The notes under the pieces: generated by a model
Told to the model about the DNA's origin: nothing
Seen by the model: only the letters and a program-made list of their open reading frames with translations
Database searches by the model: none
From: Sulfurimonas lithotrophica
Lineage (GTDB): Bacteria > Campylobacterota > Campylobacteria > Campylobacterales > Sulfurimonadaceae
Reading direction: 5' to 3'
Length of the DNA stretch: 64,000 nucleotides
Assembly (NCBI RefSeq): GCF_009258225.1
Contig: NZ_CP043617.1
Location: 1,426,001-1,490,000 of the forward strand
Shown: one piece after another, positions 35,740 to 43,514 of the stretch
Layout: every line of letters begins with the position of its first letter
Position numbering within the stretch: the stretch's first letter is position 1
Translations under genes and position numbers: made by a program

Positions 35740-36483
35740 TTAATTTTTAACTGCCGTTTTTAACATCATACGTCTTAAGTATGCTATTTTACTTTGCAAC
35801 GGTAAATTTTTAGGGCATACGTCTTCACATCCTAAAAGCGTCATACAACCAAAAACACCGTCTTCATTTCCAATCAACTCGTAATAGTCCTCGTCACTTC
35901 TTTTATCTCTTGGATCTAAATGGTAACGTGCTATTTTATTAAGTCCTACTGCCCCTTTAAAAAATGGTCGCATCTGTATTGTACCACAACCTGCCACACA
36001 ACAGCCACATTCTACACATCTATCCAACTCATAAATCTCATCTGCTAATTCAGGTTCCATCTTTTCTTCTAGTTTATCTACATTTAGTTCATTTTCTTTA
36101 TCGTGTATCCAAGTCTCTAATTTTTCATTTAATCCACGCATCCACTTACCCGTAAATACGGACAGATCACCTATAAGCTCAAAAAGCGGAAGCGGTGCTA
36201 ATGTTATGTGCTCATCTAGCTTTGAAGTGAGTGTACGGCACGCTAAAGTAGGACGACCGTTTACAAGCATCGAACAACTTCCGCAAATACCTGCACGACA
36301 TACAAAGTCATACTTTAGAGAGTTATCGTGATGTTCACGTATATCGTTTAAAACGACAAAAAGTGTCATTCCATCGGCTTCTTCAACTTCAAAACGCTCC
36401 ATTTTTGGAAAGTCTTCCGGATCATGCGGATCAAATCTAAGTATGTCTATTTTTAAAATTCTCGGTTTTTCTTCGCTACTCAT
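35740..36483 (-). CDS. frdB: Fumarate reductase iron-sulfur subunit
   Basis: Carries electrons from the quinone site to FrdA through three clusters. 247 aa. The plant-type [2Fe-2S] site is in [24 protein letters not shown] (about 60-83). [11 protein letters not shown] and [16 protein letters not shown] bind the [4Fe-4S] and [3Fe-4S] clusters. The start overlaps the end of frdA by eight bases. Last gene of frdCAB, followed by gdhA. Confidence 0.95.
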
Positions 36484-38473
36484 TTTCCAACCTTTCGTTT
36501 AATCTCTCATTTCTGCCTTGATACTTTTTCGGAAGCTTATCTTTAAAGGGCATCAGGACTTCTTGAATCTCAAACCTGTTCTTGCCTTCGGCTTCCATTT
36601 TAGCCCTTATGGAATCAACTCTCTCTTGAGCATCTTTGGTTAACTCGTTATGTATAGTCATATCCTTACCGTATCCTCTAAATCCTGGAGGCATCTCCAT
36701 CTCTGATATATCTATATCCTCATATGTCACTGTCGGTAGTGTTTGTTCAGGATCCGGCCATGAAGTGATAGTACGTTTTAGCCATTTTTCATCGTTTCTC
36801 TCAGGAAAGTCTTCACGCGAATGTGCCCCTCGGCTCTCCTCTCTCAAATACGCTCCCATAGCAACCGTAAGTGCTACCCTAATCATCTTTTGTGTACGAT
36901 ATGCATTTACCAAGGCAGGATTTGCAGCACGGCTTTTTGAGCGGAAAACATCTATATTTTTACTTCTGATTAAAAGCTCTTCAAGTTCATCTACAGCTTC
37001 TTTTAAATCCTTGCCGTTTCTAAAGATGCCCACTTTCTCCATCATGATTTTCTCCATACGGCGACGGAGTACATATGCATCTTCCCCGCCGTGATTGGAT
37101 AAAAGTTTGTCCAATTTGTCTTGTTCTTGTTTTAAAAATTCTGAAACTTTTTTCGTATGGATTGTAATATCGCTATCAGGCGTATCTAAAAAGTCCGATA
37201 TATATTCGGCTACGAGCATTCCGGATACTACAGTCTCACTTACCGAATTCCCGCCTAAGCGATTAAAACCGTGCATATCCCAACAAGCTGCTTCACCGCA
37301 AGAGTATAGACCTTTTAGTGTTTGAGATTCACCGGTATATTTTGTACGAATACCACCCATAGAGTAGTGCTGTGTCGGGCGAACCGGAATCCACTCTTCT
37401 GCGGGATCTATCCCCAAAAAGTTCTCACATATCTCTTTAACTTCACGAAGATTTTTCTCAATATGCTCACGTCCTAAAATGGTTATATCAAGCCATAAAT
37501 GATCTCCGTAACGGCTTTTTACACCTTTACCTTTTCTCATATGCTCGGTCATACGACGACTTACGACATCACGGCTTGCCAGCTCTTTTTTATCAGGCTC
37601 ATAATCAGGCATAAATCTATAACCGTCTTTATCTAAAAGAAGTCCGCCGTCACCACGACAACCCTCAGTTGTCAAGATTCCAACAGGTACTATGGCTGTG
37701 GGGTGAAACTGTATAGCTTCCATATTTCCCAAAGTTGCCACCCCACTCTCTAAAGCCAGTGCTTGACCCGTACCCTGACAGATAATCGCATTTGTAGAGA
37801 CTTCATAGATGCGTCCGTATCCACCAGTTGCAACGGTAGTAGCTTTAGATACATAAGCAACAAGTTCACCGCTCATAAGGTTTCTTGCAACTGCACCGTA
37901 GCATCTGCCGTTCTCATGAATAAGCGCCATAGCTTCAAGGCGTTCGTGAATCTCTACTTTATCTTCATGTGCCTTATTATCCATGGCATAAAGCATCGAG
38001 TGACCTGTACCGTCTGACGTGTAGCAGGTACGCCATTTTTTTGTCCCGCCAAAGTCACGTGCAGTTATAAGTCCATGTGCTTCGTCTTTTTCCGTAATAG
38101 TCACTTTTTGTGCATTTATGATTGATTGTCTGTCACCTCTTTTTACCCTAGTCCAAGGCACACCCCAGTGAGCAAGTTCACGGATAGCTTTTGGAGCACA
38201 ATGTGTAAACATACGTGCAACTACTTGATCGGCTCCCCAGTCACTCCCCTTTATGGTATCTTCAAAGTGCACGTCTTCATTATCGCCCTCACCCATCTTT
38301 GAGTTTGCTAAAGATGCCTGCATACCGCCTTGTGCAGCTGCAGAGTGTGAACGTTTAGGCGGAACGAGTGATAAAACAACGGCATCGTGTCCACGCTCTT
38401 TTACACCTGTAGCGACTCTAAGACCTGCTAAACCACCACCGATTATTAAAACATCCGTATAAATTACTTTCAT
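36476..38473 (-). CDS. frdA: Fumarate reductase flavoprotein subunit
   Basis: Cytoplasm-facing catalytic subunit with covalent FAD. 665 aa, close to the Wolinella protein. FAD motif [14 protein letters not shown] begins at residue 10. The flavinylation site is His43 in [40 protein letters not shown] and [10 protein letters not shown] hold active-site residues. ATG start overlaps frdC's stop by one base. The direction in vivo (fumarate reduction or succinate oxidation) cannot be told from FrdA alone. Confidence 0.95.
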
Positions 38474-39204
38474 TAGTGGTTCTCCATTTTTATTGTCTTG
38501 CTTTTATACTTAACACCGTCGCTAAAATCATGTTCAAGTCCGATGCTTATATATTTTGCCAAAGAAGCCATACCAAGTAAAATATAAACAACTATAAAAA
38601 TTCTCATTAAAACCTTATACCTTGCACGTGAAACTTTTGTGTTTTTGCCTTCCATAAAGCCCCATTTTAAAGCAAGTCTGTAAAGACCTATAAAAGCATG
38701 GGTTATAACTGAAAATAAAAGCAGTATATATAAAGGAGCAAGCATCTCATGTACTACACGGTGTGAAGATGCATACGGACCTATATCTGATGGTTCACTC
38801 ATCATCATATATAGATGCACACTTCCTATAAAAAACATTATAAAACCTGTTGAGAGTTGGATAAGCCATAAAGATGTGTCTTCATGCTTCATACCAAGTG
38901 CATGTTTTTTCATAGTCTTATGTTGACGGTAGTTATCAGGAAATTTTCTAAGAGCAATTGCAGCATGAACAATAAATATAACAAATATCGCTCCGGCTAA
39001 GAAAGATACTATTCCGGGATATGTCTCTCCAAAAAAGTAATAACCCTCAAACATAATGGTTACTTTATACATCATCTCTTTACTTATAAGGATAGATGCT
39101 TCAAACAGTATATGCCCCATTATAAATATTGCAAGTATTAAACCTGTTATACTTTGAGTAAAATCAAGTCTGGCGGGTGTCTTATCTAGCTTCTCTTGCT
39201 TCAT
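38473..39204 (-). CDS. frdC: Dihaem cytochrome b membrane anchor of fumarate reductase
   Basis: Five-helix membrane anchor, 243 aa, that binds two haems b and the quinone. Axial His31, His80, His130 and His169 match the Wolinella ligands His44, 93, 143 and 182 at a constant offset of 13. Glu53 ([10 protein letters not shown]) corresponds to Glu66 of the quinol site. At the position of Wolinella Glu180, the essential E-pathway residue, this protein has Ile167 ([14 protein letters not shown]). It leads the operon frdCAB, with a GGAGG ribosome site. Confidence 0.93.
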
Positions 39205-39352
39205 AAAAAAACCTCCGGTAAGATATTTTGTAATTCTACAATAATAATCTTAGAAAAAAAACAAAATTAAATCTTTTTAAACTTTAAGCCCTCTATAACA
39301 AAAGATATACCACAATATGCTAAGATACATTCAAAAAGGTTATTTAATACAA

Positions 39353-39712
39353 ATGCAAAGCAATCTTGTTTTATCTTCTTTAATGGTAGCTGTCTTGGTA
39401 ATTTTACTTCCACTTTTGTTTCATCTTACCAAATACTTGGGGACTCATAGTGACAATAAACGTAAAAACGAGCCTTTTGAAGGTGGAATAAGAGCTACCC
39501 ATAAAGATGCAAATGATAGATTTAACGTAAAATTCTTTTTAGTAGGAATTATCTTTTTAATATTTGATGTTGAAGTATTGTTTATGTTTCCATGGGCATT
39601 AAACCTAAGAGAGCTTGGAATGTTTGGAGTTATAGAGATGTTTGTCTTTATAGGTCTGCTAATAGGCGGGCTCGTGTATGTTTATAAATCTAAGGTGCTC
39701 AAATGGATTTAA
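39353..39712 (+). CDS. nuoA: NADH dehydrogenase I subunit A
   Basis: Three-helix membrane subunit of complex I, about 119 aa if the ATG at 39353 is used ([14 protein letters not shown]); the ATG at 39317 would add 12 polar residues with no ribosome site. NEPFEGGI and [27 protein letters not shown] are diagnostic. First gene of the 13-gene nuo operon; it overlaps nuoB by 10 bases. Divergent from frdC with a short AT-rich promoter region. Confidence 0.93.
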
Positions 39713-40221
39713 GTAATACTCATCTACTCGATGATGCAATAGTTACTACAAAGATAGATGCTGTAGTTAACTGGGGACGTGAAGCTTCTTTATGGCCTTT
39801 TGTGTTTGGAACTGCCTGTTGTGCCATAGAGTTTATGGCAACGGCTGCAAGCCGTTACGATATAAGCCGTTTTGGGGCTGAAGTTCTGCGTTTTTCTCCA
39901 CGTCATGCTGACCTGCTTGTGGTAGCGGGTACGGTTAGCCATAAACAAGCACCCATACTAAAACAAATATATGATCAGATGCCCGAACCAAAATGGGTAG
40001 TAGCCATGGGTGCTTGTGCATCTACGGGCGGATTTTACGACAACTACACCACCCTTCAAGGTATAGATGAGATAGTACCTGTGGATGTATATATAGCAGG
40101 CTGCCCTCCACGTCCCGAAGCTCTTATAGATGCAGTACTTGACATACAAAGAAAACTAAAACGTGAAGAGAGTTTTAGTGTAAAACATACTGATTACAAA
40201 GGTAAACTAGATGACGTTTGA
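39703..40221 (+). CDS. nuoB: NADH dehydrogenase I subunit B
   Basis: Binds terminal cluster N2 next to the quinone site. 172 aa. [26 protein letters not shown] and [16 protein letters not shown] carry the four Cys ligands. ATG start inside the end of nuoA; overlaps nuoCD by 11 bases. Confidence 0.96.
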
Positions 40222-41836
40222 GATAGTAGAAGCAGATAATCTATACAATACTATCTTAGATGCCAGAGATAACAAGGGTTTTACTCTTTTACTAGACATT
40301 ACTGCAGTTGATAATCTCACAAGAAAATCAAAAGCACCCACAAGATTTGAGCTGATATATATACTAAGACACTCTGAGTTTAAAGACGTTAAATATTTTA
40401 AAGTTTATGTAAAAGATGAAACAATCGGTGTTAAAAGTATAAGTGATTTATTTAAGTCGGCTTCATGGGCTGAGCGTGAAGTGTATGACCAATACGGCAT
40501 AAACTTCTCTACTCATCCACTACTAAAACGTATTCTAAACCATGAAGAGTTTGTAGGGCATCCGCTAAGAAAAGATTACGACATAAGAGATGCCCACTAC
40601 TGCACAAAAGCACAAGACTTGATGGACGAGTTAAAACCCGTACTGGATGCAAAAAACCTTGATATGGATGAGGATGATTTGATGGTGGTAAATATCGGAC
40701 CATCACACCCTGCAACTCACGGGACTATAAGAAGTTTGGCGGCACTTGACGGAGAGAAAATAGTAGCAGGTGTAAGTGAGATAGGATATTTGCACCGCGG
40801 TTTTGAGAAAAGTTGCGAGAACCATACATATAACCAAATCATCCCTTACACGGACAGACTAAACTACTGTTCAGCCCTTATGAACAACATAGCTTTTTCA
40901 AAAACGGTCGAGGATATGTTAGGCGTAACTCTGCCTGAGCGTGGAGTATTTATACGTGTAATACTCTCAGAACTCTCACGTGCAATAGATCATCTTGTAT
41001 GTTTGGCAGCGGGTCTTTTAGATATGGGCGGACAAACTAACTACTGGTACTTTTTTAATCCTCGTAACGATGCATATGACTTTTTATCCAAGCTGACAGG
41101 TGCGAGACTTACCAACTCCTTTATGCGCATCGGCGGTATGACACATGATTTGTATGATGGCTGGCAGGATGATCTCGAAGATGTACTTAAAAAGATTGAC
41201 TACGGCATAAGCGAGTCAAGAAAGATGATAGAGCATAACCGCATCTTTAACGACAGACTGCAAGATATCTCACCCGTAAGTGCACAAGATGCAATAAGCT
41301 ACGGATGGAGCGGACCAAATTTACGAGCTAGCGGAGTAGCTTATGATCTGCGTTTTGCAAAACCTTATGATTTTTACGACAGTTTTGATTTTGATATGGT
41401 AGTGGGAAGTGTCGGAGACACATATGATAGGATGATGGTGCGTATAGAGGAGATAAACCAGTCTATGCGCATAATCCGCCAAGCCGTTAAAGAGCTTCCT
41501 GAGGGTGATATATGTGTAAACGACAGAAGTATAATTCTTCCGCCAAAGAGTTGTGTATATGGCTCGATTGAGGGGATGATGAATCAGTTTATGCTCACAA
41601 TTGAGGGTGTAAAAGTGCCTGCGGGTGAGTATTATGGAGCTTATGAAGCTGCAAACGGCGAACTTGGTTTTTATGTAGTGAGTGATGGCAGCGGAACGCC
41701 CTATAAAGTAAAAGTAAGACCGCCTAGCTTTTATCATATGGCATCATACCCTGAGATTATCCAAGATTATCAGGTTGCAGATGCCATACTCACACTTGGT
41801 AGTTTAAATATTATAGCGGGAGAAATGGATAGATGA
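40211..41836 (+). CDS. nuoC/nuoD: NADH dehydrogenase I fused subunit C/D
   Basis: 541 aa. The C part (about 1-140) has [19 protein letters not shown] and LRKDYD. A short acidic linker (about 143-160) leads to the D part (160-541) with [50 protein letters not shown] and the C-terminal [11 protein letters not shown]. NuoD forms the quinone cavity with NuoB. Fusion of C and D also occurs in E. coli and other bacteria. Confidence 0.95.
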
Positions 41837-42270
41837 GTTTTACCTTTAGCGATGAAAATTTAAAACAAATAGAAGAATTAAAAAAACGCTATCCTTCTGT
41901 CGAAGCACTTAATCTTCCCCTGCTTTGGATGGCACAATATCAAGATGGGTTTATATCACTAGATGCTATAGATGAAATATCAAAAATAACTACGATTCCA
42001 CCTATGGAAGTTTACAGGGTTGCAACATTTTATACAATGTTTAAACTTGAAAAACCAAAGAAACTTTTAGTATCTGTTTGTAAAACCTTATCTTGCAAAC
42101 TTTGTGGAAGTGATGAGATTTTAGAGCATCTAAAAACCAAAGATGTAGAGATAGAACACGTAGAGTGTCTTGGTTCTTGCGGTACATCTCCAGTGATGCA
42201 AATAGAAGATATATACTACGAAGAACTGACACCGACAAAAGTCGATGAGATTTTAAAGGAGTTATCATGA
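41833..42270 (+). CDS. nuoE: NADH dehydrogenase I subunit E (24 kDa, [2Fe-2S])
   Basis: 145-aa thioredoxin-like subunit of the NADH module. Cluster N1a ligands are in [11 protein letters not shown] (first two) and [14 protein letters not shown] (last two). Many Campylobacterota lack NuoE and NuoF and use other proteins, so its presence is informative. The ATGA overlap with nuoCD and with nuoF shows tight coupling. Confidence 0.93.
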
Positions 42271-43514
42271 GAGATGCAAGACTTGTTTCTAAGCGTTTTG
42301 ATATAAAAGACTCTTTTAAAATAGAGGTTGCAAAAGCAAACGGCATCTATACAGATGCACTAAAACGTGCTTATAAGTTAGAGCCTTTGGAGATAATAGA
42401 TATTATAAAACAAAGCGGACTCAGAGGAAAAGGCGGAGGCGGTGCACCTGCGGGTGACAAATGGCTTTTGATGCCACAAGATAGCGACAAGCCTAGCTTT
42501 TTAGCTATTAATTGTGATGAGAGTGAACCCGGAACTTTTAAAGACAGACAAATAATCTCAAAAGACCCGCATCTGTTGATAGAGGGCATCTTAATAACCT
42601 GTAGAGCCATAAAAGCAAAACATGCCTACATCTATATTCGCGGAGAGTACAAGCAGTTTCAAGATATACTCCAAGCTGCTATTGATGAAGCATATGAAGA
42701 CGGACTTTTAAAAGAGTGTGACATTACTATCCACAGGGGTGCTGGTGCATATATATGCGGTGAAAAGTCTGCACTTTTGGAATCTATGGAAGGTAAACGA
42801 GGACATCCTAGACTAAAACCAAAGCAAAAAGAGTGTGAGTGGTATTTTGGCAACCCTACCCTTGTAAACAATGTAGAAACCATTGCATCCGTGCCGTATA
42901 TAATAGAACACGGTGCAGAAGCATATCGCAAATTTGGAACCCAAAAGTCTCCGGGTACTATGCTTTTTGCAATGAGCGGTCATGTAAAAAACCGCGGAGT
43001 GTATGAGGCTGAGTTTGGAATCTCTATGTGGGATTATATACAACATTTCGGCGGCGGTATAAAAAATGACAAAAAACTAAAAGCGGTAATTCCAGGAGGT
43101 GCATCAACCGATGTATTAACCGCGGGTGAGGTTTTAAATGCAAAACTTGATTATGAATCGATGCGTGAGATGGGAAGTTCATTAGGTACGGGCGGAATGA
43201 TTGTTATGGATGAAGATACAAATATGGTTGAAGCCCTTAAAAATCTTTTGGAGTTTTACCATGAAGAATCTTGCGGACAATGCACACCTTGTCGTGAAGG
43301 TACGGGCTGGAGTGAAAAGCTCGTAGCAAAAATATTAGATGGAAAGGCAAATAGCGAAGATATCGATAAGCTTCTTGAGATTTCAGATACGATGAACGGC
43401 AAGACCATATGTGTATTTGCTCCTGCTGTAAGTTGTGTGATAAATTCATTTATAAAAAAGTTTCGAAATGAGTTTGAAGCTTATAACAATAATTCAACCG
43501 AGGATATAAAATGA
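42267..43514 (+). CDS. nuoF: NADH dehydrogenase I subunit F (NADH- and FMN-binding)
   Basis: 415 aa; oxidises NADH through FMN. GLRGKGGGGAPAGDKW (about 51-66) is the NADH-binding glycine loop, NCDESEPGTFKDR binds FMN, and SCGQCTPCREGTGW plus a later Cys (PAVSC) bind cluster N3. All ligands are present, so NADH oxidation should be intact. Overlaps nuoE and nuoG by four bases each. Confidence 0.95.
   Translation: MRDARLVSKRFDIKDSFKIEVAKANGIYTDALKRAYKLEPLEIIDIIKQSGLRGKGGGGAPAGDKWLLMPQDSDKPSFLAINCDESEPGTFKDRQIISKDPHLLIEGILITCRAIKAKHAYIYIRGEYKQFQDILQAAIDEAYEDGLLKECDITIHRGAGAYICGEKSALLESMEGKRGHPRLKPKQKECEWYFGNPTLVNNVETIASVPYIIEHGAEAYRKFGTQKSPGTMLFAMSGHVKNRGVYEAEFGISMWDYIQHFGGGIKNDKKLKAVIPGGASTDVLTAGEVLNAKLDYESMREMGSSLGTGGMIVMDEDTNMVEALKNLLEFYHEESCGQCTPCREGTGWSEKLVAKILDGKANSEDIDKLLEISDTMNGKTICVFAPAVSCVINSFIKKFRNEFEAYNNNSTEDIK

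Follow-up and report, generated by a model that had tools for sequence, protein, structure and literature searches.

The FrdC anchor of Sulfurimonas lithotrophica lacks the E-pathway glutamate of helix V and carries a glutamate in helix I: an apparent second anchor design in Campylobacterota

The frdCAB operon and its anchor gene

The DNA analysed here (the window) is a 64,000-nucleotide stretch of the Sulfurimonas lithotrophica genome. Its minus strand carries frdC, frdA and frdB, in this order, as an operon (Table 1). The frdC reading frame contained no internal stops, and its product scored 305 bits against NF010072 (fumarate reductase cytochrome b subunit, Campylobacterota type), above the curated cut-off of 187. 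Four haem-ligand histidines, the equivalent of Glu66, and FrdA and FrdB encoded in the same operon are all found, as expected for a type-B dihaem quinol:fumarate reductase, and FrdC is the membrane anchor of a type-B FrdABC complex with one membrane subunit and two haems. The closest named records were metagenome-assembled Sulfurimonadaceae and Sulfurimonas. The AlphaFold2 model of the protein had a mean pLDDT of 84.7 and placed helix I at residues 9-39 and helix V at residues 156-181. Divergent from frdC lies a nuo cluster (window 39317-43514, plus strand) with a fused NuoCD and proteins matching NuoE and NuoF; in the epsilon-type nuo cluster nuoEF is replaced, according to an excerpt of a review (PMC6682613).

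Table 1 Features of the frdCAB operon, positions of its anchor subunit aligned with Wolinella FrdC, and the second complex encoded in the same genome
Feature	Position	Strand	Details and basis
frdC, dihaem cytochrome b anchor, Glu180-less/Glu48 type	38473..39204	-	243 aa; NF010072, PDB alignment, model
frdA, flavoprotein	36476..38473	-	665 aa; NF006383, 1149 bits vs cut-off 663
frdB, iron-sulfur subunit	35740..36483	-	247 aa; NF010071, 398 bits vs cut-off 264
His31 = Wolinella His44	39112..39114	-	phmmer alignment
Glu35, codon GAA = Wolinella Val48	39100..39102	-	helix I, His44+4; alignments, codon reading
Glu53 = Wolinella Glu66	39046..39048	-	phmmer alignment
His80 = Wolinella His93	38965..38967	-	phmmer alignment
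His130 = Wolinella His143	38815..38817	-	phmmer alignment
Ile167, codon ATA = Wolinella Glu180	38704..38706	-	alignment and codon reading
His169 = Wolinella His182	38698..38700	-	phmmer alignment
Second complex, own genome	L240 4334-7935		SdhA 570 aa, SdhB 326 aa, SdhE 293 aa (CCG domain)

Isoleucine at the position of Wolinella Glu180

The window FrdC was aligned to Wolinella FrdC by phmmer against PDB chains (residues 4-236 on 17-248), and the offset was constant at 13 across the haem region. The preliminary description had matched the four histidines and Glu53 to Wolinella residues at this offset and had read isoleucine at the place of Glu180; the phmmer alignment bore out both claims, the second together with the codon reading. 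We take His31 and His130 to be the distal haem ligands, as in the Wolinella structure, and His80 and His169 are presumably the proximal ones. Glu66 is the proton acceptor at the menaquinol site (excerpt of PMC10739449). Position 180 is Glu in 1qlb, 2bs2 and 1e7p, Gln in 2bs3 and Ile in 2bs4, so the earlier numbering was correct. An error in the reference numbering was ruled out by the PDB alignment, which has the offset of 13 and is gapless around the site; a sequence error in a single genome was ruled out too, since the nearest relatives also lack Glu at position 180 (Ile in L003 and L032, with about 90% FrdC identity, and Val in L004, with 86%).

The top-scoring PDB match was 2bs4, the Wolinella E180I variant, and Foldseek with the AlphaFold2 model also ranked 2bs4 first (TM 0.86 and 0.82). 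With Ile167 rather than Glu at position 180 in helix V, the window FrdC departs from the Wolinella-type E-pathway quinol:fumarate reductase (QFR), which supports the earlier view that the Wolinella E-pathway is unable to work as such here; the absence of an acid at this position is a feature expected of a membrane-potential-driven dihaem succinate:menaquinone reductase.

Distribution of the residue-180 state across the phylum

An FrdC match was found in 301 of 397 genomes drawn across the phylum. FrdC was read in 233 genomes, 52 from the window's genus and 181 others; reading began with the matches of highest score and went on to selected lower ones, so the sample was not random. Within the genus (g1), FrdC was present in 52 of 135 genomes, or 36 of the 79 that were at least 90% complete, and position 180 was Val or Ile in 38 of the 52 and Glu in 14. 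The other 83 genomes (43 of the 79) had no FrdC match, and all 135 had a match to the MFR-family flavoprotein. Outside the genus, 111 genomes had Glu180 only, 69 were without it and one (G294) had both types. The alignment across Campylobacterota that had been proposed earlier therefore showed a widespread Glu180-less state, found in 99 of 234 distinct stretches, which are distinct aligned translations with near-duplicates counted.

An acid or threonine at position 48 accompanies the loss of Glu180

An alignment of 178 sequences first showed that position 48 was split, with Val in all Glu180 rows and Glu, Asp or Thr in the others. In the full set of 234 stretches this pairing had no exception: Glu180 always came with Val48 (135/135), and the 99 stretches with Val, Ile or Thr at position 180 had either Glu or Asp (50) or Thr (49) at position 48. 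The combinations (180/48) were E/V 135, V/E 40, I/E 9, V/D 1, V/T 47, I/T 1 and T/T 1, and all 38 Glu180-less genomes of the genus had Glu48, as does the window, where this residue is Glu35. Column 48 was the sole column that fully predicted column 180 (0.947 bits, with 0.773 for the next best). The 178-row alignment has 113 rows with Glu180, in which 31 columns never vary; of these, only 48 and 180 differed in every non-Glu row, followed by column 41 with 91%. The equivalents of the four haem histidines and of Glu66 were kept in 233 of 234 genome-level FrdC readings; the one other reading, from one of the 233 genomes, had Asn at the Glu66 position and four intact haem histidines. Neither the 48/180 pairing nor position 48 itself was mentioned in the literature that we surveyed, which consisted mostly of papers open without subscription and of excerpts.

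A compensating carboxylate in helix V, as considered in the preliminary description, was not found; the exchanged acid sits in helix I. When set helix ranges were scanned for acids, the Glu/Asp48 class yielded column 48, and the Thr48 anchors had no new acid in common. By the AlphaFold2 helix limits, residue 35 lies four residues from the end of helix I that leads to Glu53, and residue 167 lies in mid-helix, which at 1.5 angstrom per residue would put Glu35 roughly 10 angstrom nearer the periplasm than residue 167. From these model positions Glu35 seems to lie beside the distal haem and the quinol side rather than in the mid-membrane place of Glu180, and so seems not simply to fill that place. 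The observation named earlier as one that would refute the claim, another glutamate in the same spatial position, was thus not borne out as worded: another glutamate is present, but its predicted place along the helix is a different one. As judged from these residues, FrdC belongs to a natural second anchor design, with Val or Ile at position 180 and an acid (Thr in other lineages) at position 48, in the distal-haem helix and towards the periplasm.

The new acid could mean that the proton route was rewired and still compensated, with Glu48 (or Thr48), water and a haem propionate replacing the Glu180 relay in an enzyme that remains electroneutral. In the Glu/Asp48 class one carboxylate is exactly exchanged for another, an excerpt on the Prevotella QFR holds that this enzyme without Glu180 builds no proton gradient (PMC10739449), and a path over other glutamates was proposed for the D. 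gigas enzyme (excerpt of PMC6175931). However, with residue 48 predicted close to where helix I ends on the periplasmic side and residue 180 in mid-helix, the centre of the membrane would still have no carboxylate, and the Thr48 anchors have no common new acid in the helix ranges scanned. We therefore regard a rewired relay as unlikely, though it deserves some weight.

G294 is by its sequence Wolinella succinogenes or a very near strain, as the PDB stretch 17-248 recurs unchanged in its FrdC. It has a second frdC-like gene (L244 8871-9629, minus strand; 252 aa; 220 bits to NF010072) with Thr180 and Thr48, directly behind frdB, so both anchor types stand beside one frdAB; anchor exchange may have drawn on this gene or left it behind. 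Another genome, G483, has two FrdC copies about 5 kb apart with equal score and identity (C1:379800-386100; L163, L164) and a third elsewhere, and all three have Glu180.

Trees and exchange of frdC

Trees of a quick kind were built from 56 of 60 operons; L033 was left out as the same record region as L241, and L258, L043 and L051 were left out with FrdB cut or missing. When the state of residue 180 was mapped on the phylogeny, as had been proposed, it followed the FrdC tree and not the FrdA tree. The FrdC tree needed 3 changes of state with column 180 masked and 4 with column 48 masked too (the latter mask was not applied to two rows, L273 and L274), but the FrdA tree of the same operons needed 12, at least 10 of them forced by starred branches. 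FrdA data rejected a single group of the six Glu-type rows that have a window-like FrdA (p-AU 0.000165), and FrdC data rejected the FrdA sister pairs L251/L050 (p-AU 3e-6), L253/L264 (1e-47), L254/L263 (7e-7) and L252/L244 (0.0096), with groups that were chosen after the trees were seen. The pairs L254/L263 and L253/L264 each fall within one genus.

The strongest case was the pair G155 and G152, which were 98.3% identical in FrdA and 97.9% in FrdB, but only 43.9% in FrdC (frdC replacement at L253 6126-6824 and L280 7335-8066). On one side their DNA agreed at 95.9% over 6.2 kb, with the match ending inside the start of frdC; on the other it was 95.3% identical over 7.2 kb beyond frdC, starting 12 bases after the stop, and no match of more than 100 bases was listed between these flanks. 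The first 19 FrdC residues were identical, which places the junction within the 5' end of the gene. A tree artefact as the cause of the FrdA/FrdC mismatch is excluded for G152/G155 by this direct comparison, and the one-clade tests support the mismatch elsewhere. Within the window's genus, frdCAB occurred in the same place behind a block of sdhABE-like genes and xth in G014 and G004 (Glu) and in G065 (Val). From these comparisons, frdC appears to have been exchanged over frdAB.

Columns 48 and 180 both changed in 4 independent row pairs and no pair changed in only one (sign test p 0.125), so the event-level statistics are modest, although the residue exchange is chemically specific. A single clade of all Glu180-less FrdC was not rejected at 0.05 (p-AU 0.054). 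The event that stands apart most clearly was G443 (V180/D48) against its sister G191 (E180/V48), with FrdC 76% identical. The two are sisters in both the FrdA and the FrdC trees, which indicates substitution and not exchange, and among the 31 invariant columns G443 changed only 48 and 180.

These few independent events (3-4 changes on the tree, 4 pairs), and a single Glu180-less clade that the data tolerate, would suit the idea that the replacement has no functional consequence, with Glu180 dispensable in the lineage and the residue pair drifting along with the subunit. But Val48 and Glu180 occur together in 135/135 stretches of one class and both are changed in 99/99 of the other, G443 kept the other 29 invariant columns, and the subunit was exchanged repeatedly. 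We give this idea little credence.

The SdhABE-type complex in the same genome

The genome also encodes a separate SdhABE-type complex (Table 1), which resembles the methylmenaquinol:fumarate reductase (MFR) family with scores below the family cut-offs. SdhA matched its profile only from position 47, so that an export signal such as the Wolinella enzyme has would not fit, and the complex is probably cytoplasmic as far as its sequence tells. In all 135 genus genomes the MFR flavoprotein family matched with E <0.001, in none of them above the family cut-off; the match was only weak in a few incomplete genomes, and within the genus an MFR-family flavoprotein accompanies anchors of either type. 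An ATP citrate lyase citrate-binding domain encoded in the window's genome is consistent with a reductive citric acid cycle. An aquifer relative is described with two such enzymes, and Sievert 2008 is cited there for the cytoplasmic one serving the reductive cycle (excerpt of PMC4674564).

SdhE was counted as present at E <1e-30, a threshold that we chose ourselves, the genus g1, for which the list of genomes was incomplete, was left out of the SdhE tables, and a match in two pieces (f4/g10) was counted as present. In the first 113 genomes outside the genus, which were picked largely by score, SdhE was found in 22 of 25 Glu180-less genomes against 5 of 87 with Glu180, plus Wolinella with both types. 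Because of this choice by score, 68 more genomes were read, and the link became weaker (41/69 against 16/111, plus Wolinella). All 11 genomes with Glu48 or Asp48 read outside the genus had an SdhE match, and 10 of them belong to the family f4; among the Thr48 genomes the match was present in 30 of 58, with 0/13 in g8 and 1/9 in g21. When relatedness was controlled on the FrdA tree, 4-5 pairs spoke for the link, none against, and 5-6 were ties (p 0.06-0.125).

The remaining 28 of the 69 Glu180-less genomes, all of them Thr48, had no SdhE match above the threshold, so that the reduction of fumarate may fall to FrdABC in them. This would fit an uncompensated fumarate reductase that conserves energy, in which fumarate respiration driven by methylmenaquinol itself builds the membrane potential. 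The E-pathway would be equally missing, low-potential methylmenaquinone occurs in some phylum members and methylmenaquinol has a potential of -124 mV (excerpt of PMC6682613), and C. concisus grew better with fumarate when H2 was given (excerpt of PMC7059363). On the other side, the driving force is small and the window's own genome holds a second candidate fumarate reductase, and we rate this kind of energy conservation as quite unlikely for the window enzyme.

Discussion

The explanation that we tentatively favour, at a chance only just short of even, is that the window FrdABC has an uncompensated (electrogenic) anchor and runs mainly as a membrane-potential-driven succinate:menaquinone reductase; the function of the anchor is a motivated prediction. 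Since no carboxylate is seen in mid-membrane, protons would be unable to follow the Wolinella E-pathway. The passage of electrons between succinate on the inner and menaquinone on the outer side would then be uncompensated, and the enzyme would work against or with the membrane potential. Near Glu66, Glu48 may take care of the quinone protons at the periplasmic face. Since the reductive citric acid cycle could rely on the SdhABE-type complex, FrdABC would mainly oxidize succinate, driven by the membrane potential.

Menaquinol protons released to the periplasm, with Glu66 as acceptor, would build a gradient unless they are returned via Glu180 of the E-pathway (excerpt of PMC10739449), and so an uncompensated reaction is the simplest expectation for an enzyme without Glu180. 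The dihaem Sdh2 of M. smegmatis has no acid at the Glu180 position and no canonical E-pathway (excerpt of PMC7447783), and the B. licheniformis enzyme does not use an E-pathway and has an H+/e- of 1.0 (excerpt of PMC10308238). The Prevotella bryantii QFR, which has no protonatable residue there and is held by its authors not to build a proton gradient (excerpt of PMC10739449), counts against the uncompensated reading, and so does the rise of Frd proteins of C. concisus, which may or may not belong to a Thr48 group, with fumarate (excerpt of PMC7059363). The preliminary description had offered another proton route, electrogenic operation or a succinate dehydrogenase role; the sequence data leave these undecided, precedent would favour the last two, and the SdhABE-type complex points more weakly towards the same two. 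The direction of turnover is the weakest step of the uncompensated reading.

The Wolinella E180Q and E180I variants (Lancaster 2005) reportedly lose menaquinol-driven fumarate reduction, which also counts against an uncompensated anchor, since loss of Glu180 alone would then give an inactive and not an electrogenic enzyme. The natural enzyme may owe its ability to work to Glu48, and we know of no assay of a Glu180-less/Glu48-type enzyme. Position 48 might explain why the bare E180I enzyme is poor and natural Ile180 enzymes persist.

The missing Glu180 is real and belongs to a larger natural pattern, in which the anchor comes in two designs that differ in the place of the acid and appear to be exchanged over catalytic subunits that are related. 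For Campylobacterota as a whole, we consider it plausible, although somewhat below an even chance, that two interchangeable anchors on one FrdAB core, a compensated one with Glu180/Val48 and an uncompensated one with Val180 and Glu48 or Thr48, are swapped by recombination of frdC. If this is true, the exchange of one gene would switch complex II between electroneutral and membrane-potential-coupled operation, and the swapping of anchors suggests that the enzyme's coupling to membrane energy may be switched in nature. To our knowledge, electroneutral and potential-driven dihaem complex II have so far been judged from a few enzymes of distant phyla and from site-directed variants of low activity. 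Close natural pairs now combine either anchor with FrdA and FrdB that are similar, among them the two genomes whose DNA around the operon is about 95% identical, and the E-pathway idea becomes directly testable with one gene or two residues to exchange.

Comparison with known systems

The window enzyme shares with the Wolinella succinogenes QFR FrdCAB (1qlb, 2bs2) the CAB order, the single dihaem anchor, the four haem histidines and Glu66, and its FrdC is 48% identical to 1qlb as aligned by Foldseek, but it differs in having Ile for Glu180 and Glu for Val48. The Wolinella E180I variant (2bs4), its best match in both sequence and structure, has the same Ile at position 180 but retains Val48 and is said to be inactive with menaquinol. 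Sdh2 of M. smegmatis, a dihaem succinate:menaquinone reductase, likewise lacks the acid at position 180 and keeps the Glu66 equivalent (excerpt of PMC7447783), but it has other membrane subunits and is a trimer. The P. bryantii QFR also has no protonatable residue at this position (Trp170; excerpt of PMC10739449) but belongs to another phylum. The D. gigas QFR (5xmj) shares the single dihaem anchor (TM 0.73 and 0.83, 27% identity by Foldseek), whereas its proposed proton path runs over His38-Glu164-Glu193 (excerpt of PMC6175931).
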